From positions 62,001-126,000 of the forward strand of contig CADBXF010000016.1 in NCBI GenBank assembly GCA_902798585.1: 64,000 nucleotides of DNA, written 5' to 3'. Below the pieces are notes generated by a model. The model did no database searches. It saw only the letters and a list, made by a program, of their open reading frames with translations, and had not been told where the DNA came from. The DNA comes from an uncultured Lachnospiraceae bacterium (GTDB lineage Bacteria > Bacillota > Clostridia > Lachnospirales > Lachnospiraceae). How positions within the stretch are numbered: position 1 is the first letter of the stretch; every line of letters starts with the position of its first letter. The position numbers and the translations under genes are program-made. This document shows positions 5,802 through 62,134 of the stretch, one piece after another.

Positions 5802-7007
5802 TTAAGGGCAATAGATTCGAACGACCTCTTCCGGCAAATGCGCCTTGATAAACGCGCTTGCACCGGCGATTTTTCTCGCGTCCGCGAGGCATCCCGGAAG
5901 CTTCCGGAATCCTTTTATCTCCTCCTCGTTCGCGCGGAAGAAGTTGATATCCGCCGCCGGAGGAAGTTCCGTCTTCTGCGTAATTCCCTCAAGCGCCGCA
6001 TAAATCAAAACGGAAAATGCGAGATACGGATTGGCTGCGGGATCCGGCGAACGAAGCTCCGCGCGCCGGCTGCCGCCGGTAACCGCGGGAATCCGCACAA
6101 GCTGCGAGCGGTTCTCCTTCGACCACGAAATGTATCCGGGCGCCTTGCGAAGCCCGAGTCTCTTATAGGAATCCTCCGTCGGATTGAGAAACGCCGTCAT
6201 GTCCTCAACTCTTGACAGCACACCGGCAATCATTCCCTCGAACACCTCGTCCGCATCCGAATGTACGGACATATTGATGTGAAAACCGTTGCCCGGCATC
6301 TCCGGAATCGGCTTCGGCGAAAAATCGGCATACAGCCCGTTGCGCGCGGCCACCGTCCGGACGACGGTCTGGAATGTCAGCGCCTGATCTGCCGCCGTCA
6401 GCGCATCGGAGTACCGGAAATCAATCTCATTCTGGCCGGGGCCTTCCTCGTGGTGCGAGCTCTCGGGGCGGATTCCCATCTGCTCAAGCGTCAGACAAAT
6501 CTCGCGGCGGATATTTTCCCCGCGGTCCTCCGGAGCGATATCCATATATCCCGCCCTGTCATAGGGACGGTTGGTCGGCTGTCCCTTCTCGTCCTGCTCG
6601 AAGAGATAGAACTCCTGCTCTGCGCCGAACTCAAACGAATATCCTTCCTTCGCCGCATCGGCAACCGCCTTTTTGAGAATCGAGCGCGTGTCGCACTCAA
6701 ACGGCGTCCCGTCCGGGTAGGTGATACTGCAGAACATACGAACAACGCGCCCGTGTTCGGGGCGCCAGGGAAGCGGTGTCAGAGTGTCCGGGTCGGGATG
6801 AAGAATCAGATCCGATCGCGACTCATCACCGAATCCGGCAATGGCCGAAGCATCAAACGCGACCCCGTATTGGAACGCATGGGGCAGCTCCTCCGCAAGG
6901 ACGGAGATGTTTTTCTGTCGGCCGAACACATCGCAAAATGCAAGCCGGATGAATTTGACATCCTCCTCCGCTACATATTGCAGAACTTCATTTTTCGAAC
7001 ACTTCAT
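5802..7007 (-). CDS. glnA: Glutamine synthetase, GlnA (type I-like)
   Basis: ATP-dependent amidation of glutamate with ammonia. The 401 residues are a little shorter than typical GSI (~440). Catalytic landmarks are visible: FGAEQEFYLF (metal/glutamate), EGPGQNEIDFRYSDAL, GNGFHINMS and the arginine-rich GGSRRAELRSPDPAANPYLA. The start at 7007 has GGAGG 5 nt upstream; the frame extends upstream without a better site. It sits between gltB3 and the ANTAR gene, making a self-contained GS-GOGAT operon. It may be the main glutamine synthetase if the frameshifted glnN is inactive. Confidence 0.93.
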   Translation of the reverse strand: MKCSKNEVLQYVAEEDVKFIRLAFCDVFGRQKNISVLAEELPHAFQYGVAFDASAIAGFGDESRSDLILHPDPDTLTPLPWRPEHGRVVRMFCSITYPDGTPFECDTRSILKKAVADAAKEGYSFEFGAEQEFYLFEQDEKGQPTNRPYDRAGYMDIAPEDRGENIRREICLTLEQMGIRPESSHHEEGPGQNEIDFRYSDALTAADQALTFQTVVRTVAARNGLYADFSPKPIPEMPGNGFHINMSVHSDADEVFEGMIAGVLSRVEDMTAFLNPTEDSYKRLGLRKAPGYISWSKENRSQLVRIPAVTGGSRRAELRSPDPAANPYLAFSVLIYAALEGITQKTELPPAADINFFRANEEEIKGFRKLPGCLADARKIAGASAFIKAHLPEEVVRIYCP

Positions 7008-7072: not shown

Positions 7073-7801
7073 TTAATTCGCCACATACAACTGTTTATAC
7101 GGATTCCGGCTGTCCGGCGTCACCACGGTAAACGGCGAATTCATCACCGACTCCTCGTCGCATCCGAACAGACTGCAGTATTCCCGCACATATTCCCGAA
7201 TTTCCGCAAGATCGGCCTCTTCCGCGGGTCTCGCCGTCACCTGCCACGGGAAGGTGATATCCGCCGCATCGGTGCGGAGAAACATCTTGCCTCCGTGCAT
7301 TCCCGTGCACGGAAAATTGCCGACAATCCGGCTCGTCTTCTGCCCATCCTGCGGCAGACCGAGAACGACAATCACGCCGCCCGCCTGGTATTCCCCGAGA
7401 AAACTTCCGCAGGCTCCGCCGATCACCATCACCGGCACCTTGTCGCGGTATGCCTTCATGTGAATTCCGGCGCGGTATCCCGCGTTGCCGCGGACGAAAA
7501 TCCGGCCGCCGCGCATCGCATACCCCGCTGCATCGCCGATGTTCCCGTGCACCGTGATGCGACCTGCGTTCATCGTGTCACCGACGGCATCCTGCGCATT
7601 TCCGTGCACCGTGATGTCCGCGCCGTTCAAATACGCTCCGAGCGCATTGCCGGGCGTTCCCTCGATTGTAATCTCACGGTCGGACATTCCGGCCGCAATA
7701 AAACGCTGCCCCAGGCATTCCGAGAGCTCACAGACGCCGTCGTGCTCACGCAGCCACTCGTTCACTTCCCGATATCCGAGATTTCTCACATCAAGTTTCA
7801 T
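7073..7801 (-). CDS. Glutamate synthase GXGXG (GltB3) subunit
   Basis: 242 residues with the repeated G-x-x-G-x-x-x-G units of the right-handed beta helix that forms the C-terminal part of a full-length GltB. Glutamate synthase passes ammonia from glutamine to 2-oxoglutarate; this domain braces the other two. Here it is a separate polypeptide, as in archaeal-type enzymes. The gene starts where the FAD oxidoreductase gene ends (1-nt overlap) and precedes glnA. Similar GXGXG proteins exist in formylmethanofuran dehydrogenase, but the neighbours settle the call. Confidence 0.92.
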   Translation of the reverse strand: MKLDVRNLGYREVNEWLREHDGVCELSECLGQRFIAAGMSDREITIEGTPGNALGAYLNGADITVHGNAQDAVGDTMNAGRITVHGNIGDAAGYAMRGGRIFVRGNAGYRAGIHMKAYRDKVPVMVIGGACGSFLGEYQAGGVIVVLGLPQDGQKTSRIVGNFPCTGMHGGKMFLRTDAADITFPWQVTARPAEEADLAEIREYVREYCSLFGCDEESVMNSPFTVVTPDSRNPYKQLYVAN

Positions 7802-37549: not shown

Positions 37550-40500
37550 TTACTCTGCCGCCTCGTCCTTCTTTCTTCTGTAGATCACTACCAAGATGAA
37601 CATAGCAGCTGCCGCGGTAAGCAAAATCGTCCAAACTGCAGTATTTGCGGTATCTGCCGTCTTCGGGGACTCTGCCTTTCCACTCTCGTTCTGCTTCTCC
37701 TCTTTCTTCTCCTCCTCGGGCTCCTCTTCCTTCTCGACCTCGAGAGTTGTTACAACCTCGCCGTCCTCGAAGTAGATGTGAAGCTCATATACACCGGGCT
37801 GCAGTGTATCGAGGTAGGACTTCTTAATCGTCAGATCCAAACTACCGGCCTTTGCGATGTACGCATCCTTCGGAGGCTGAACCTTGCCGATCTCGAAGTA
37901 ACGATATTTGCCGAAAGTCAACTCATCGTGAACATTGCTCTTAACAACAAATCTCTGATCGCCGTTTACAATCTCGTGCTTCACGGTGTAGACAATCTTC
38001 TCGGCTTCCTTAACGGAAACATCGTAACCGCCTTCCGCATCCTTGTACTTAACAACAAGCGGAAGCTTTTCGTATGCCTTCGAGCTGTCGAAACCGGAAA
38101 CCATATCCTCGGTGACATCGAGCGTCGTCACTTCGTTGTTTGTCATGGTAATGACAACCTTCATGCCCGTGAGATCGAGTCTGTCACCTACGGTGTACTC
38201 CTTCTTAGCGTCATCCGGAATCTTAATCTCAATCGACTTGATTTCCGCGGGAAGCTTCTCAAGAACTCTCTTCTCGGTCTCCTGGCATCCCTCGTGGATG
38301 CATTTGCGGTACTCAAAACCATCCTCGAATACCGTGGGCTCCTTGCCCATGATCCAGTTGCCGAACTCATGTCCGAGCGCGTCAATGTCCTCTGTTCTCG
38401 AGCTGAGAACTTCGCCGCACGACTTGCACTCTACAACAAAGGTCTCGGAACCCTTTTCCAGGCAGGTTGCATCTGCATGCTTCGTTTCGTCTTCCTTCTC
38501 CTCACCCGGAACATGCTCCGCCTTCAGCGTGATTACGGCATAAGCAACCTGAACAGCGGCGGTGTAATCCGGATCCGCATCTTCCCGACCGACCAGGCTG
38601 TAAAAGAATTCATACAGGTCATCCTCGTTCAAGACAAGTCCGTCCTGTTCCTCTGTCTTGCCCGTCAGCATATTGTATCTCTCGGTATCAAACAATTCCG
38701 CAAACTTCAAAGTATTGATATACTCAATGCTTTCTACTGCCACCGGCTTACCGCCGTATGTCGCTTTGCAGGTCAGACCGTTGAGTATCGTGTTGCTCGT
38801 GTCGCCTTCATTGGCGATTGCAACAATAAGCTTGTAAGTCTTATCACCCTTCACGGTGAATGCCTTTCCGTTCCACGGAGCCAGGTTCTCAGCCGTAAGT
38901 TCCGTGTCGGCGTCAAGAAGCTTAACATCGCAGAAGTAGTCGCTCGCGAGTCCGCTGATCGAATAGTTCATGCGAGGCGCTTCGATATCTGCCCCGCGAA
39001 CAACAGCGGCCAGCGGCTGAATATCAACAATCGGAGTGCGACTGCCGATCTTCGTACCGCACAGGAGCGTATCGATGTCAATCGAGAACTCCGCCGAAAC
39101 AAACTTCGGGTAGATTACATAAGACTTCGAATAGCTCTTGCGGAGCTCATAGTTGTTGTTGCTTACACTGCAGACGCCAACCACATAGTAGCCGGCATCA
39201 ATGCAATCATCCTCTGCGAACGGAATTGCTTTTCCGTTGCTCTTGAGGCCGAGGGTAAGGATGCACTCATCACCCTCAACAAGGTCTTTGGCGTTCACAG
39301 CCGCCGTCGGAAGCTGCTGCTTTCCGTTGTATCTGGTCATCAGACTGTCCTCATCCCAGATTACGGAAACCGGCTTCGGGTTAATCGCGAAAGCCTTCTC
39401 CTCGGAACCGTCGGTGCTGCCTTCAAGCACATACTTCTCGGTATCGCTGATGGTTGCAACAGCCGTATAGTTTCCTGCGTTCTTAGCTTCGCCTTCCTTC
39501 ACGGTTACCGAAACGGTGCACTCGTCATCGCCTACGAGCGAACCCTCGGGAATCGTCACGCTCGGTACATGCGACTTTCCGTCGTATTCGAACGCAAGCG
39601 TATCCTCGTCCCAAACAAGGGAGATGGTCTTCGCTTCGGTCTTGAGAGCAACCGGAGCCGTCGTAGCGGTATAAATACCGTTCGCCGCCACCTTGACCGT
39701 AATCGTCGTCTCGCCGACCCCGACAATCACAATCTTGCCGTTCTCGTCGACGACAGCGATGCTTTCGTCATTGCTTACAAAGGATACAGCGCCGGTCGCC
39801 TTCGTATAATCGATTGCAAACGGCTCCGCGCCGTAGGTCTTCGTAATCTTCGCCTCCGTCAGAGTGATGGAGCCGGGCTGCGTCTTTTTTGCAACATTAA
39901 TGGTATAAGTGTACTTTTTATCGCCGTATTTTACTTCGACTTCCCGATTATTCCCGGCATTCTGCGTAACCGTATTGTAGTTGGTTACCATTGCGGGTGT
40001 CACTTCGATTTCTTCCGTCTTTACGGTTGTGTTACCGCTGACGCGGGTATATTTGCGGACAATCTTGACATTGGTCAGATCCAGCGCATCGCCCTCGGTA
40101 TAGTCCTTCTTCGCTTCGGAAGCGTTAAGGGTTTCCGAGCTCATATTGAGCCAGCCGGAGTAGATTTTGATGTCCTTGGTAATCGTCATCGTATCGAAGT
40201 TGAACGGTGTCGAAAGATCGATGCTGGTGTACCATCCGTCAAATATATGTCCCGCAGGGCATGTCGGATTGTCGGGAATATCGCTCTTATCAATCAGCTT
40301 GCCGTGCTCAACCGTAATCGGATAATCCGTGAAACTGTGGCGGGGTCTGGTCTCATTGTTGTCTTCTCTTGCAACGAAGGTTACCGTATGATATACAACC
40401 TTTGCCTTCCAGTTCGCAACAACCTCGATATTGCTTTCCACAACCGAGTCGGTGCTGAACGGATTTCCGTTCAGTGTCCATCCCTCGAATGTGAAATTCG

Positions 40501-42478
40501 CATCGGTAGGATTCGGAACGGAACCCGAAGGAATCTTGAAGTCCGAACCAACATAAACCTCAACATCTCTTCCGCCGTGGCCGTTCATCTTGAATGTAAC
40601 CTTGGGATAGGTTGCGGTCTTCGCCGTCAGGGTGAGCGGTCCCGTGACAGCGGAATTGAAATCGTACTTCTGATTGCCGTTGAACCAGCCGAGGAAATAC
40701 TCATGCTCACCCTTAGCGGTGATGTTCTCGGGCTCTGCAGCCTTCTCGCCGGAAACAACATACTGCGTTTCCACCGTCTCGTTAATCAGGTTGTTGTCGC
40801 GGAATACAACTTCGTAAGCGTTGCCCCACTTCGAGTATACCGGCGTGTCGGCGGTAATATCCTGTGTAAAGTCAAACTTTTCCGTGCAGTTGATATCCTT
40901 GTACCAACCGAGGAAAATGTGCTTTGCGCCGTTGGTCGTCTGATTGCAGGTGGGCGAAGGAATCTTATCCTCGGGAATCTTGGTTCCGATTCCTACCTGA
41001 ATCGCAGAAACGATACCGTTCGGGAAATTGTGGCGTGCTCTTCCGTTCGCATCTACCGAGTAGAAGGTCACGGTTGCTTCGTTAGCAACGCGCTTCACCC
41101 ACAATTCAACGGGCTTGGTAATCTTCGTGGAAAGATCGTAATCGCTGTAGACATATCTTCCGTATCTGTAGGTCCGGGTCTGCAGAGTCGTGGTCATGCC
41201 CGGGCGCTGCAGAGATTCCGGAATCTCAACCGCTTGGTTGTAGCGAACGCGAACCTCCGCGGACGAGTTGCCGTCATGAATTGTTACCTTAACTTCGTAT
41301 ACAACCTGAACCTCATCCGTGGTCGTACGGCAAATCTCATTGCCGTTCGCATCGCGGAGGATTACATTGCAGCGGAAGATTGCACCGTTGCGGGCAATCA
41401 CTCTGCCGGAATTCGGCGCATTGTCCGAGGTAATCTCAAGCGTGTCGGTAATGGTCTTCCACTGTCCGTTGGAATAGAATGTGGAAGCCGGCTCCGTCTT
41501 GGAGATGCTCGTCTCGCCGTTAATCAGCGGGCAGTCAACAAACTCATCGCTGCCGGGGCGCTTCTCCTGCCAGTTGAACACAAAGATCATTCCGGGCTTG
41601 TATTCTACATTTTCCACCTTGGCATTCAAACTGAATTCAGGAGCAAAGCCGTACTCGTTGTTATACTGATTATAGAAAGGATAGTCGATCGGCTGCTTCG
41701 TAATCGCAACAACCGGCTTCGGCTTCTCCTTGTATTCAACGAAGAGCTCCTTCGCTCCGAGAATCGGGCTGTTGCTGCTCCAGGCATTGTAATAATACAC
41801 ACCGTCAATCGAGTATCTGTCGTAAATCGCAACTAAGTCATAACCCTCGCGGTTGGTAACCGCAGCGGGAATCGTAACAGCCGTGCGATATGCGGTCGTC
41901 GTCGATGCAATCGGAGTTCCGAGGACGCCGTCCTCGCCGGGCTTCTCGTAGAATACCACCTCCGAGCTGTAATCAACCTTCGCCTTTTCGGAGCTAACCT
42001 GGCCCTCGCGCTGTACGCTGCCGGCATAGCTCTTCTTGAGACGGTAGATGACGAAAATGCAGAAGTACTCGGAGCCGTTCACTGCGTAATTCAGCTCCTG
42101 TCCCTTAACCTCATAGGTATCGGAGGCATTCACGGAAGTCACTCCCGTTACATTTTCCTTCGTATGGGTCTCAAGCTCTAAGGCACCGGCATCGATACCG
42201 TAGCTGCGATACCATGTGCAGGTCACATAATAAGTCTCGCTTTTCTTGAGGGAGGTGAATCTCGCCCCGGCCGTAAATGCCGGCTTGAATGTCTCATCCT
42301 CACCGTTTGCAACCGTCATCGTGTACTTGTAGTTCACCGGCTGCAAAGTAATCTGTCCCGACGGTTCGGCACTTGCTGTCTTCACCGCCTCTGTTCCAAC
42401 CATTCCTACCATCAGGACCAGAGTCAATACCCAGGCCATGATCCGCATGAATCGTGAGAACTTTCCATAGTTCTTCAT
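37550..42478 (-). CDS. 1642-residue sortase-type surface protein with InlB repeats and Ig-like domains
   Basis: A signal peptide (~1-38, ending TASAEP) leads to an N-terminal beta region (~40-430). About four InlB/Listeria-Bacteroides repeats follow (~430-810; HIFLGWYKD, YFLGWFNG, FTFEGWTLNG, HIFDGWYTS). Next come Big_3-like and MBG-like modules (~810-1190), a region with CxxC pairs (ECKSCGEV, RKCIHEGCQ, ~1400-1470), another Big_3-like domain and a C-terminal beta domain. It ends with a Glu/Lys linker, SPKTAD, a membrane helix and RRKKDEAAE, a variant LPxTG signal. It is probably attached to the cell wall and involved in adhesion. Its composition seems more AT-rich than neighbours. Its promoter carries LytTR-like repeats. 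Confidence 0.9.
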   Translation of the reverse strand: MKNYGKFSRFMRIMAWVLTLVLMVGMVGTEAVKTASAEPSGQITLQPVNYKYTMTVANGEDETFKPAFTAGARFTSLKKSETYYVTCTWYRSYGIDAGALELETHTKENVTGVTSVNASDTYEVKGQELNYAVNGSEYFCIFVIYRLKKSYAGSVQREGQVSSEKAKVDYSSEVVFYEKPGEDGVLGTPIASTTTAYRTAVTIPAAVTNREGYDLVAIYDRYSIDGVYYYNAWSSNSPILGAKELFVEYKEKPKPVVAITKQPIDYPFYNQYNNEYGFAPEFSLNAKVENVEYKPGMIFVFNWQEKRPGSDEFVDCPLINGETSISKTEPASTFYSNGQWKTITDTLEITSDNAPNSGRVIARNGAIFRCNVILRDANGNEICRTTTDEVQVVYEVKVTIHDGNSSAEVRVRYNQAVEIPESLQRPGMTTTLQTRTYRYGRYVYSDYDLSTKITKPVELWVKRVANEATVTFYSVDANGRARHNFPNGIVSAIQVGIGTKIPEDKIPSPTCNQTTNGAKHIFLGWYKDINCTEKFDFTQDITADTPVYSKWGNAYEVVFRDNNLINETVETQYVVSGEKAAEPENITAKGEHEYFLGWFNGNQKYDFNSAVTGPLTLTAKTATYPKVTFKMNGHGGRDVEVYVGSDFKIPSGSVPNPTDANFTFEGWTLNGNPFSTDSVVESNIEVVANWKAKVVYHTVTFVAREDNNETRPRHSFTDYPITVEHGKLIDKSDIPDNPTCPAGHIFDGWYTSIDLSTPFNFDTMTITKDIKIYSGWLNMSSETLNASEAKKDYTEGDALDLTNVKIVRKYTRVSGNTTVKTEEIEVTPAMVTNYNTVTQNAGNNREVEVKYGDKKYTYTINVAKKTQPGSITLTEAKITKTYGAEPFAIDYTKATGAVSFVSNDESIAVVDENGKIVIVGVGETTITVKVAANGIYTATTAPVALKTEAKTISLVWDEDTLAFEYDGKSHVPSVTIPEGSLVGDDECTVSVTVKEGEAKNAGNYTAVATISDTEKYVLEGSTDGSEEKAFAINPKPVSVIWDEDSLMTRYNGKQQLPTAAVNAKDLVEGDECILTLGLKSNGKAIPFAEDDCIDAGYYVVGVCSVSNNNYELRKSYSKSYVIYPKFVSAEFSIDIDTLLCGTKIGSRTPIVDIQPLAAVVRGADIEAPRMNYSISGLASDYFCDVKLLDADTELTAENLAPWNGKAFTVKGDKTYKLIVAIANEGDTSNTILNGLTCKATYGGKPVAVESIEYINTLKFAELFDTERYNMLTGKTEEQDGLVLNEDDLYEFFYSLVGREDADPDYTAAVQVAYAVITLKAEHVPGEEKEDETKHADATCLEKGSETFVVECKSCGEVLSSRTEDIDALGHEFGNWIMGKEPTVFEDGFEYRKCIHEGCQETEKRVLEKLPAEIKSIEIKIPDDAKKEYTVGDRLDLTGMKVVITMTNNEVTTLDVTEDMVSGFDSSKAYEKLPLVVKYKDAEGGYDVSVKEAEKIVYTVKHEIVNGDQRFVVKSNVHDELTFGKYRYFEIGKVQPPKDAYIAKAGSLDLTIKKSYLDTLQPGVYELHIYFEDGEVVTTLEVEKEEEPEEEKKEEKQNESGKAESPKTADTANTAVWTILLTAAAAMFILVVIYRRKKDEAAE

Positions 42479-42596: not shown

Positions 42597-42625
42597 ATTT
42601 TAATGAATTCAAGCGATAAAGTAAA
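42597..42625 (-). promoter_or_regulatory. Promoter of the surface-protein gene
   Basis: TTTACT (42625-42620), 17-nt spacer, TAAAAT (42602-42597). The -35 is weak, as expected for an activator-dependent promoter. The predicted mRNA has a ~110-nt leader. Confidence 0.6.
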
Positions 42626-42632
42626 CTCCAAC

Positions 42633-42660
42633 TTGAGTAAAAAAATGACCGTTTGAGTAA
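42633..42660. promoter_or_regulatory. LytTR-type direct repeats upstream of the surface-protein promoter
   Basis: TTGAGTAA at 42633-42640 and again at 42653-42660, exactly 20 bp apart (two helical turns), beginning 8 bp upstream of the -35. The second lies in ACCGTTTGAG, close to the usual LytTR half-site pattern. A LytTR regulator is encoded next door. Confidence 0.6.
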
Positions 42661-42742
42661 TCCGGAGTGATTTTTGCCCGTTTTATGTGGTTTCAGCCCG
42701 TATTATACACTCTGTTCATGCATATTCATGATTTTATGCAAC

Positions 42743-42774
42743 AAAAAAGCGGGGGCGATTTTTCGCGCCCCCGC
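42743..42774 (-). terminator. Terminator of the LytTR two-component operon
   Basis: GCGGGGGCG and CGCCCCCGC arms around a short A-rich loop, followed by six T residues on the minus strand, ~40 nt after the kinase stop. Confidence 0.9.
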
Positions 42775-42813: not shown

Positions 42814-44172
42814 TTATATGGATTCCGACTTATCGGCATCCATCTTGGCGTGAACATACATCATGACGGAAACACAGAACATCCCCGGCTCATAGGAGAA
42901 GTTTACAAGTCCGTTGTACCGTGCCACAATGTCGCGTACGGACTCGGTTCCGAGGCCCTCTCCGTCGTGCTTTGTAGACATGTACCGGCCCTTGGCATTC
43001 TGCACGGGAACCGTCAGACAGGTGTTATCCACCGTGAATGCTACAACGCCGTCGCTCCGGAAACCGCCGCGGATTGTCACAAGATTGTGCTCGCAATCCT
43101 GCTTCGCGCAGGCATCTACGGCATTTTCCAAGAGATTGCCGAGCAACACGGCAAGATCGCTCTTCCCGATACCGATTTCCTCGGGGAGCGAAAACTCCGC
43201 GCGGAACTCCGTCCCCTGATTCGCTGCAAGATGCGAAAAATAAGTCAGAACGGCATTGGCTGTCATATTCTCGCAGAAAGCAATCGGCTCATCGAGACGG
43301 TGTATTTTGCGGAACTCGTCGATGTAGCGGCGCAGCCCCTCCTCGTCCCGATTGTCCGCGATGGACTCGAGAACCGCGATGTGATGACGCAGATCGTGCT
43401 TGGTCTTTCTCGCGTCGCGGATACGCTTGCTCAGGTCGTTGTATTCCATAACCTGCACGGCGAGCGTCTGATTCACCGCGCGGACCTCAAGCAGCTTATT
43501 GTGCTCCAGGACCATTCGTATAATCATGTGGTAAATCAGGAACGAGGCCGCATCGATTGCGAGAAGATACAGCACATTGGTCAGATGGGATGCGCATTCC
43601 AGCGAGCTGCCCGAATGATACAGATTCTGCATCCAGAAGAGATAAAAGGCCGCCGGAACCAGCCAGCAGTATTTCCAGACCGTACTCTCCCCCTCCTTGC
43701 CCAGAATGGAAACGATATCCTTGTAGATTGCGAGGCCGAAGGGAACGAAAATGATAATAACGGCAAGCACGATGGTTACGGACGCCGTCCAGCAGTAACC
43801 GCGATACGCGAGCTCGCGGTTCCATTTGATTTCGATGTATTTGCCGGTGAGAGAAGTGAGACCGCCGATTGTGTAGAGCATAAAAAAGACAAAGAGCAGC
43901 TTTCCGACATGATCCTTGATTGCAATCAAAAGAAGCGTAACCAGAATAATCGACTGCATGATTTCAACAAACGCGCCGATTCTGACATTGTGCATGATTC
44001 GCGCTCCGGCATAGGAGAGCGCAACCCAGCTGATCCCCATCAAAGTAAAGCAGACCGCCGCGAGTTTCTGAGAGCGTCTCGCGCGGTCACGAAGCATTAA
44101 AAATGCAAAAAAGATAATCGGTGCACTGCGAAGCGTCGAGTACACGATAAATTCGGCATGCGAATAGCCCAT
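42814..44172 (-). CDS. AgrC-like sensor histidine kinase (GHKL)
   Basis: 452 residues from the ATG at 44172. The N-terminal ~220 residues contain six or seven membrane helices. A coiled linker leads to a DHp-like helix with the likely phospho-acceptor His259 (KTKHDLRHH), then a GHKL ATPase domain with NLLENAVDAC and GEGLGTESVRDI. It lacks a large extracellular domain, as is usual for peptide-sensing AgrC-type kinases. It starts 1 nt after the response regulator stop. No cognate peptide gene was found nearby. Confidence 0.9.
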   Translation of the reverse strand: MGYSHAEFIVYSTLRSAPIIFFAFLMLRDRARRSQKLAAVCFTLMGISWVALSYAGARIMHNVRIGAFVEIMQSIILVTLLLIAIKDHVGKLLFVFFMLYTIGGLTSLTGKYIEIKWNRELAYRGYCWTASVTIVLAVIIIFVPFGLAIYKDIVSILGKEGESTVWKYCWLVPAAFYLFWMQNLYHSGSSLECASHLTNVLYLLAIDAASFLIYHMIIRMVLEHNKLLEVRAVNQTLAVQVMEYNDLSKRIRDARKTKHDLRHHIAVLESIADNRDEEGLRRYIDEFRKIHRLDEPIAFCENMTANAVLTYFSHLAANQGTEFRAEFSLPEEIGIGKSDLAVLLGNLLENAVDACAKQDCEHNLVTIRGGFRSDGVVAFTVDNTCLTVPVQNAKGRYMSTKHDGEGLGTESVRDIVARYNGLVNFSYEPGMFCVSVMMYVHAKMDADKSESI

Positions 44173-44173
44173 T

Positions 44174-44899
44174 CTATCGGCCTCCCTTGCGAAGGTTGCG
44201 GAAGAGATAATCCGCGTGCATCTGTCGAAGCTCGGCTCTGCGCGCGCGGCTCGTCGGGACAACGGCCCCGCCCTGCAGGTAGACCGCATCCTCATCGATA
44301 TTCATGATCTGTCCGAGATTGACGATGATGCCCTTCGTGCAGGTGGCAAACTCGCCGCGGGAACAGAGAAGATTTTCCATCTCCGCCTGCGAAATCCACA
44401 CGCTGCGCGTCTCGCCGTCCGTGAGATGAATCTCCACTTTGTGATTGCTGTAGGAAGTATAGACGATATCGTTTAAGCGGCACTTGCTCTCATCGGGCAG
44501 AATGATATACCGCTCCTGTTCATATTGCGAAAGATCGATGCTCTTAAGCATCCGAAGGACATCCGTCGTGCCGTACGGCTTTAAGAGATAGTAATCCGCG
44601 CTCACGGCATAGCTCTCTGCCGCAAAATCATTGCTCGAAGTGATAAAGGCAATCCGGACAATCGAATCCTGCTTGCGAATCTCCCGGGCGGTAGCGATTC
44701 CCGTCAAATCGCCGTCCATGAAAATGTCGAGAAAAATCAGGTCATACTGTCCCGGCATAAACGACTTAAGCAGCGCCTCGCCGCTGTCATACACCTCGAT
44801 GGTGTCCTGCCCGTAGCCCATCTCCGCAAGACAGGTCTGCAGCTCGCGCTCAAGATGTGCTGAATCCTCTCGCCGGTCATCCGTGATTGCTATCCTCAT
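44174..44899 (-). CDS. LytTR-type response regulator
   Basis: 241 residues: receiver (~1-120) with Asp7/Asp8, phospho-acceptor Asp58 (FLDIFMDG) and Lys in LLKPYG. A LytTR DNA-binding domain follows (~135-236) with RLNDIVYTSYSNHKVEIHL and FATCTKGIIVNLGQIMNIDEDAVYL. LytTR proteins bind direct repeats spaced about two helical turns, matching those upstream of the surface-protein gene. Paired with the following kinase gene. Confidence 0.93.
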   Translation of the reverse strand: MRIAITDDRREDSAHLERELQTCLAEMGYGQDTIEVYDSGEALLKSFMPGQYDLIFLDIFMDGDLTGIATAREIRKQDSIVRIAFITSSNDFAAESYAVSADYYLLKPYGTTDVLRMLKSIDLSQYEQERYIILPDESKCRLNDIVYTSYSNHKVEIHLTDGETRSVWISQAEMENLLCSRGEFATCTKGIIVNLGQIMNIDEDAVYLQGGAVVPTSRARRAELRQMHADYLFRNLRKGGR

Positions 44900-61381: not shown

Positions 61382-62134
61382 TCACCCGGCGTACGGACTG
61401 TCAAACTCCGCCTCGCACTTGCGCACGGCAGCCTCGAGCGTCATGCCCGTGAACGACTGCGCGCTGAGATGCCGGCCGGACTTCTTATCGTCGGCGAAGA
61501 CACCGACAACAATGCCGGGGATGGTGCTCTCCGGCGCATTCGGCGCACCGGGACCGCCGAGATCGGTTCTGCACCAGCCGGGATCGGCGAGATTGATCAT
61601 GACATCGGTTCCCTGCACCGTCGAGCCGAGGTCGATTGTAATCTTGTCAAGCGCCGCTTTGCTCGCGGAATACCCCGCCTGACACACATCGAGCGCAATG
61701 CCGCTTGTGGTGTTGACGATGCGCCCCGTTCCCCGTGCAATCATCTTCGGCATAAAATGATAGCAAATCATCGCCGGCGCAATCGTATTGACCGCGAAAC
61801 TCACCGTATAATCCTCAACCGGCGTCTGAAAACAGTTTTTCCGATATGCAATCTGGATTCCGGCATTGTTCAAAACGATATCCACCGGAACCTCAAGTCC
61901 GTCAATCTCCTCGCACATGCGCTTAACCGCGTCGGGGTCTCCGAGATCCGCCTCCACGGCATACGCCTGTACACCGTACGCCTTCACCTCGCGCATCACG
62001 CGCTCCGTGTGTTCAAGGCTGCGGCTGTGCAGAATCAGATTGCATCCCTGGCGCGCCATAAACTGCGCCGTGAGAAAACCGATGCCGCGTGCTGCGCCTG
62101 TTATCAACGCCCATTTTCCTTTGACCGAATACAT
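61382..62134 (-). CDS. Short-chain dehydrogenase/reductase
   Basis: 250 residues. ITGAARGIGFLTAQF is the NAD(P) motif, NNAG follows at ~91-94, and the catalytic Ser/Tyr/Lys appear as TTSGIALDVCQAGYSASKAAL. Substrate unknown. It lies upstream of the Fe-ADH gene on the same strand with a ~110-nt gap. Confidence 0.9.
   Translation of the reverse strand: MYSVKGKWALITGAARGIGFLTAQFMARQGCNLILHSRSLEHTERVMREVKAYGVQAYAVEADLGDPDAVKRMCEEIDGLEVPVDIVLNNAGIQIAYRKNCFQTPVEDYTVSFAVNTIAPAMICYHFMPKMIARGTGRIVNTTSGIALDVCQAGYSASKAALDKITIDLGSTVQGTDVMINLADPGWCRTDLGGPGAPNAPESTIPGIVVGVFADDKKSGRHLSAQSFTGMTLEAAVRKCEAEFDSPYAG

Follow-up and report, generated by a model that had tools for sequence, protein, structure and literature searches.

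What controls the gene for a 1642-residue surface protein in an uncultured Lachnospiraceae bacterium is the question raised by the 64,000-nucleotide stretch analyzed here (the window: positions 62,001 to 126,000 of contig CADBXF010000016.1, assembly GCA_902798585.1). Three genes on its minus strand, coding for a response regulator, a sensor histidine kinase and the surface protein, form a module, and a pair of short direct repeats lies just upstream of the last of them. Our answer, drawn from comparative genomics, is that the LytTR response regulator very probably binds this pair as two half-sites and activates the surface-protein gene. The same control of the giant surface protein by LytTR repeats had been proposed from a reading of the sequence alone (the sequence-only reading); the proposal is strongly supported by the conservation of the putative operator, both within the genus and in distant relatives. 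The elements in question are the following:

37550-42478, minus strand: the target gene, coding for the 1642-residue surface protein (N-terminal signal-like sequence, Listeria-Bacteroides repeats, Big_3 and, at the C-terminus, SPKTADT followed by a hydrophobic stretch and a basic tail)
42597-42625, minus strand: predicted promoter, with a weak −35 box TTTACT (42625-42620), a 17-bp spacer and a −10 box TAAAAT (42602-42597)
42633-42640, minus strand: putative proximal LytTR half-site TTACTCAA, extended form ACTCAAGTTG (42638-42629)
42653-42660, minus strand: putative distal LytTR half-site TTACTCAA, extended form ACTCAAACGG (42658-42649)
42814-44172, minus strand: sensor histidine kinase, 452 residues from the likely ATG at 44172 (predicted seven-helix membrane sensor plus GHKL ATPase)
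44174-44899, minus strand: response regulator, 241 residues (receiver and LytTR DNA-binding domain, with FATCTKG instead of FxRxHxS)

The repeat reads TTGAGTAA on the plus strand and occurs twice, with a start-to-start distance of 20 bp; in the sense of the surface gene the pair is TTACTCAA-N12-TTACTCAA, and in this exact form it is found once in the window and once in the whole 2.59-Mb genome. The gap between the proximal 8-mer and the −35 box, which agrees with TTGACA at four of six positions, is 7 bp. The −10 box starts 36 bp past the ACTC of the proximal half-site, and the ATG of the surface gene (42478) lies about 120 nt downstream of TTTACT-N17-TAAAAT. Two repeats 20 bp apart, ahead of a weak −35 box of the 1642-residue gene, is what the sequence-only reading had described, and its coordinates and geometry are confirmed. 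In published LytTR sites, two direct repeats of 9 bp are separated by 11-13 bp, usually lie 4-11 bp upstream of the −35 box and are bound cooperatively on one face of the DNA, as far as the available parts of these papers describe them (PMC6193735, PMC2714321, PMC4064291). With direct repeats expected about 20-22 bp apart and 4-11 bp before the −35 box, the putative operator of the window (period 20 bp, or 20-21 bp in the genus; 7 bp to the −35 box) fits this geometry. However, of 2000 dinucleotide shuffles made from the 335-bp intergenic region, 68 also contain an exact 8-mer direct repeat spaced 18-24 bp. In a single genome, therefore, the pair is only mildly unusual, and it is conservation that gives it significance.

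Within a genus set of 22 genomes, 12 besides our own have close relatives of the regulator, with identities of about 52-72%, at 13 loci, one genome having two. Eleven of these loci extend beyond the kinase gene, and in every one of them a tandem half-site separates the kinase from the gene that follows. Of the other two, one is split across contigs, the kinase standing on L080, which breaks after it, and the pair and the surface gene at the start of L119 (both from genome G016), and one (L087, from genome G017, which is 82% complete) stops inside the kinase gene and is unreadable. With the window included, the pair is found between the kinase and the giant surface gene in 13/13 readable loci, and what follows the pair is in each case a giant surface-type open reading frame (ORF), which in L085 and L088 extends past the contig end. 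The half-site of the genus is TACTCAAAC, repeated in tandem with a period of 20 bp (8 promoters) or 21 bp (5 promoters); TACTCAAA in the distal copy and TACTC in the proximal copy are invariant across the 13 promoters, and the flanking columns are mostly variable. The −10 box starts 35-37 bp after the proximal ACTC in all 12 promoters measured; 17 bp ahead of it stands a hexamer that shares with TTGACA only 1-4 of 6 positions in these 12, an architecture that we infer to be of the activator-dependent type.

The same half-sites recur outside the genus. A scan of genome contigs with the regulator as query gave 25 loci, and 8/8 distant ones (L016-L022 and L028), whose regulators are about 50% identical to ours, have the half-sites at a spacing of exactly 20 bp. 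These read ACTCAAACGG and, in most cases, ACTCGAACGG, and a TATAAT-like box follows after about 35 bp. Here the pair precedes not a giant surface gene but the regulator's own operon. The order in L016, whose proteins were typed, is BTAD-type activator, regulator, kinase, unknown protein, HlyD and AcrB-type efflux genes, and by inspection the other seven loci keep this order as far as the stretches and the ORF listing resolve it. These operons, with their BTAD activator and RND-type efflux genes, are thus apparently autoregulated; a cultured relative, Sarcina sp. DSM 11001, has this form. With regulator, kinase and site in common but a different target, the distant loci point to the regulator as the user of the site. 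In the wider family, close relatives of the regulator (E 1e-45 or better) were confined to 4/299 genomes.

The pair also follows the regulator from genome to genome. The exact pattern TACTCAAAN{12,13}TACTC matches in 12/13 genus genomes that bear the regulator and in 0/9 that lack it (Fisher p 2e-5), and a reversed control pattern gives 6 matches in 5 genomes in the same scan. The pair, with its fixed geometry, is conserved and co-occurs with the regulator. Several points nevertheless weigh against our interpretation. The pattern was devised after the regulator loci had been inspected, so that its absence from the nine genomes is the sole independent test, and G017, whose contig ends inside the kinase gene, has the regulator yet no match. 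In the stretches read of remote loci (L023-L026 and L120-L122, regulators at most 47% identical) no pair was found near the regulator; the regulator again lies beside a giant ORF in L121 and L122, that of L121 having Listeria-Bacteroides repeats, and the remaining, still weaker loci of the 25 were covered by the pair scan only. Moreover, the FxRxHxS loop, to which DNA binding by VirR and AgrA has been attributed in the literature, occurs in 0/29 aligned relatives of the regulator, 24/29 having [CS]TKG in its place. That loop marks AgrA/VirR-like members, however, and the LytTR domain of the regulator exceeds its Pfam cut-off without the motif (34.2 bits against 22.6), as does the receiver domain (Response_reg, 54.4 bits against 30.2), which bears out the earlier identification of a LytTR regulator as neighbor. 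In a PDB sequence search the receiver domain was matched and no LytTR-domain match was seen in the alignments shown.

Two further features lie in the region between the kinase and surface-protein genes:

42667-42706, minus strand: two more 20-bp tandem units, 80% alike, adjoining the pair upstream with the same period
42749-42774, minus strand: intrinsic terminator-like hairpin with a T run, 3′ of the kinase gene

The hairpin (42774-42749), standing between the kinase and surface-protein genes, implies that the latter is a transcription unit with a promoter of its own. The 20-bp units are possibly degenerate or decayed extra half-sites. A few bases past the −10 box, near the expected transcription start, an inverted half-site core, TGTTTGAG, is seen in L078, L079, L082, L083 and L119; its counterpart in the window is GTTTAAA.

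Taken as a mechanism, the two TTACTCAA half-sites would form the operator of the LytTR response regulator. The seven-helix kinase would answer an extracellular or membrane signal and, as expected from its family, phosphorylate the regulator; two regulator molecules could then occupy the two half-sites, which lie on the same face of the DNA, two helical turns apart. So bound, they would bring RNA polymerase to a promoter whose −10 box is usable but whose −35 box is weak, and the 1642-residue, putatively wall-anchored protein would be turned on, activation being suggested by the position of the site and by the weak −35 box. In 14/14 genus loci, the window included, the 700 bp ahead of the regulator gene contained no autoregulatory pair. 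Since the pair is unique in this genome and none precedes the regulator itself, the module looks like a private circuit.

For the kinase, the ATG at 44172, directly after the regulator's stop codon, is the most likely start, rather than the longest-ORF start at 44295. Its description as AgrC-like in the sequence-only reading holds for the cytoplasmic half, with its GHKL ATPase (HATPase_c_5, 52 bits), its H-D-x-R-x-H box (H259, D260, R262 and H264, invariant in 13/13) and its best PDB fold match, among many kinases, to the AgrC cytoplasmic kinase (6e52), but not for the sensor, which is predicted to be a membrane domain of about seven helices without identified relatives. In the AlphaFold model (mean pLDDT 77, pTM 0.50) the top fold matches judged were to cytoplasmic parts of kinases, none of them informative on the sensor.

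The AgrC-like cytoplasmic half invites a scenario of peptide quorum sensing, compatible with activation by the regulator, in which the kinase would read a secreted peptide and tie the surface coat to cell density; a peptide with a double-glycine leader is in fact encoded in the genome, together with a C39 exporter. We consider this scenario unlikely. The kinase core of an Agr-type system is present, but AgrB gave no match in the genome (a weak control, since only 1/14 control genomes responded, and below the cut-off), and no small ORF, AgrD-like or other, is conserved across the genus between the regulator and surface genes or in the 700 bp that precede the regulator gene. Where small ORFs of the ten genus modules compared have counterparts, these are confined to near-identical species or are short chance matches. 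The double-glycine peptide and its exporter, for their part, sit beside a different kinase and LytTR regulator. With no AgrB, no shared small ORF and the peptide at another locus, the control by cell density or peptide that the sequence-only reading had suggested is left unsupported. The seven-helix sensor also argues against it. So does a distant relative in which regulator and kinase adjoin an RND efflux operon, an arrangement suggestive of envelope stress or a small molecule as the signal.

That other LytTR system (L091, on G000:C37, 4687-10751) comprises an AgrC-like kinase, a regulator that is the genome's only LytTR gene product besides that of the module, a C39-peptidase ABC exporter and an HlyD-like protein. 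The double-glycine-leader peptide (MFKTLNQNEMMTVNGGGHYI...) lies inside the ORF at 7104-7514, and by position it and the C39 exporter belong to this locus. The locus has direct repeats of its own, TGTCGTTCATCAA, at 5974/5994 and 7126/7146, in each case with a spacing of exactly 20 bp, and its regulator has a classic-looking loop, MIRTHKS (RTHKS). With its own 20-bp repeat, the L091 regulator is a useful internal contrast to that of the module.

A regulator that uses the pair to repress the surface gene, or that does both according to its phosphorylation state, has a precedent in PlnC and PlnD, which belong to one locus and act on the same repeats with opposite effects, as the available part of the study describes (PMC2714321). 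The −35 box of the window, moreover, is tolerable at four of six positions, so that basal activity is possible. We regard repression as improbable all the same, because the site lies upstream of the −35 box and not over the core promoter, and because the −35 match of at most three of six positions in 8/12 promoters suits activation.

Still less probable, and in our judgment very unlikely, is that the conserved pair serves a DNA-binding protein other than the LytTR regulator encoded at 44174-44899. The missing FxRxHxS motif would allow for this, and a BTAD-type activator, encoded in the distant operons, offers a candidate, SARP/BTAD-type activators likewise using direct repeats. The presence and absence of the pair, however, track the regulator; the BTAD protein found no match in the 22 genus genomes (an empty answer that, lacking a positive control, is weak); and the one further LytTR gene that the genome contains goes with a different 20-bp-spaced repeat, TGTCGTTCATCAA. 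Finally, a chance repeat in an AT-rich intergenic region, which the shuffles might suggest, is ruled out for practical purposes by conservation in 13/13 readable genus loci and 8/8 distant loci amid mostly variable flanking columns.

Activation by the LytTR regulator through the pair thus being preferred, the site can be set against known systems, in each case as far as the accessible parts of the papers describe them. Judged by sequence, it is a well-evidenced putative member of the LytTR-operator class whose half-site polarity and DNA-contact loop are unlike those of the best-known members. Read on the opposite strand, the half-site, C[AC]GTTTGAGTA, closely resembles the AlgR site CCGTTTGGC given in PMC4064291. 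PlnC and PlnD of Lactobacillus plantarum are likewise LytTR response regulators, but their consensus, TACGTTAAT, is read towards the promoter, whereas here the GTT core faces away (ACTCAAACNG towards the promoter), and they control bacteriocin genes via quorum sensing, whereas the module has no linked peptide (PMC2714321). The VirSR system of Clostridium perfringens, with its VirR boxes, resembles the module in pairing a clostridial kinase and regulator, in acting on secreted products and in using two imperfect direct repeats; VirR, however, requires FxRxHrS for DNA binding, according to the title of a reference given there, in place of which the regulator has FATCTKG (PMC2688746). AgrCA of Staphylococcus aureus shares the LytTR regulator, the AgrC-like cytoplasmic kinase and a poor −35/−10 arrangement; the module differs in having no AgrB match, an apparently dedicated single target and another DNA-contact loop (PMC4227749). 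In Streptococcus mutans, LytTR systems such as HdrRM use 9-bp repeats with 11-12 bp between them, 4-11 bp from the −35 box, but HdrRM has an inhibitory membrane protein as partner and an autoregulated operon, in contrast to the two-component pair seen here, with no site upstream of its own genes (PMC6193735). BtsSR of Escherichia coli also combines a seven-transmembrane sensor kinase, a LytTR regulator and a narrow target; it binds pyruvate and drives a transporter gene, and the likeness to the sensor of the module is by description only (PMC10653868). A search for an S. mutans ComE consensus gave nothing. The accessible part of the literature on LytTR regulators and surface proteins or adhesins in Lachnospiraceae, the rumen or Clostridia held no description of the module, and surface regulation in commensal gut Lachnospiraceae seems little studied. 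For LytTR regulators without the AgrA/VirR DNA-contact motif, TACTCAAAC[TG]G, with a period of 20-21 bp and 35-37 bp to the −10 box, would provide a testable operator.

By inspection, the surface protein appears to carry a sortase-type sorting signal: a motif ([ST]PKT[AGS]D or TGDT) with its tail is seen in 11/11 complete surface proteins, and the genome encodes two sortase homologues. For a putatively wall-anchored repeat protein, a role in adhesion seems plausible. Compared with their regulators, the surface proteins change far more rapidly. In the closest species pair (L078 and L079), regulators are 96.7%, kinases 94.0% and surface proteins 60.3% identical; between the window and L078 the figures are 71.5%, 68.5% and 34.9%. 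The C-terminal part with the sorting signal is better kept than the remainder in several comparisons. Rapid evolution of large surface proteins is common. We tentatively entertain, as somewhat doubtful, a wider picture of a conserved switch and a variable coat across this rumen-type genus, combining a non-AgrA loop (TKG), an operator of reversed polarity, a hypervariable giant surface protein and a non-peptide signal. If so, the coat would diversify, for example under pressure from phage or host, while the control circuit stays fixed. The contrast itself, of a conserved switch with a fast-changing coat, prompts two questions: which pressure acts on the coat, and to what the kinase responds.

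Further targets were sought by pattern scans. In the genome of the window, ten other places resemble the pair with 2-3 mismatches, against ten matches of a reversed-pattern control, and thus without excess; a 21-bp-period version has no match there at up to two mismatches. The only near match (two mismatches, G000:C24) was rejected as a target, lying beside a terminator-like hairpin at the apparent 3′ end of a coding sequence and not being promoter-shaped. A stricter ACTCRAA pattern gave 9 matches in 7/299 genomes against 14 control matches, which is background, and missed the window's own site because the second copy reads ACTCAAG. In the genus, five matches fall off the regulator loci (G002:C8, G008:C125, G009:C66, G012:C17 and G015:C7), a number not above the six control matches; two lie ahead of an EamA transporter gene in a pair of closely related species, a third ahead of a further giant ORF, that in G002:C8 has no clear gene and that in G012:C17 resembles chance. 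These matches are only suggestive of a wider regulon. The EamA gene adjoins the regulator upstream in L083 (1893-3589) and stands behind a promoter-shaped pair in the two other species (L116 and L117, reverse strands), a SIMPL/DUF541-type gene following it in L083 and L117; it is a possible second target. In L115 (about 2840-2865, G008:C125) the pair precedes a second giant ORF, of more than 900 residues and with no Pfam match, which is possibly a second surface target in G008.
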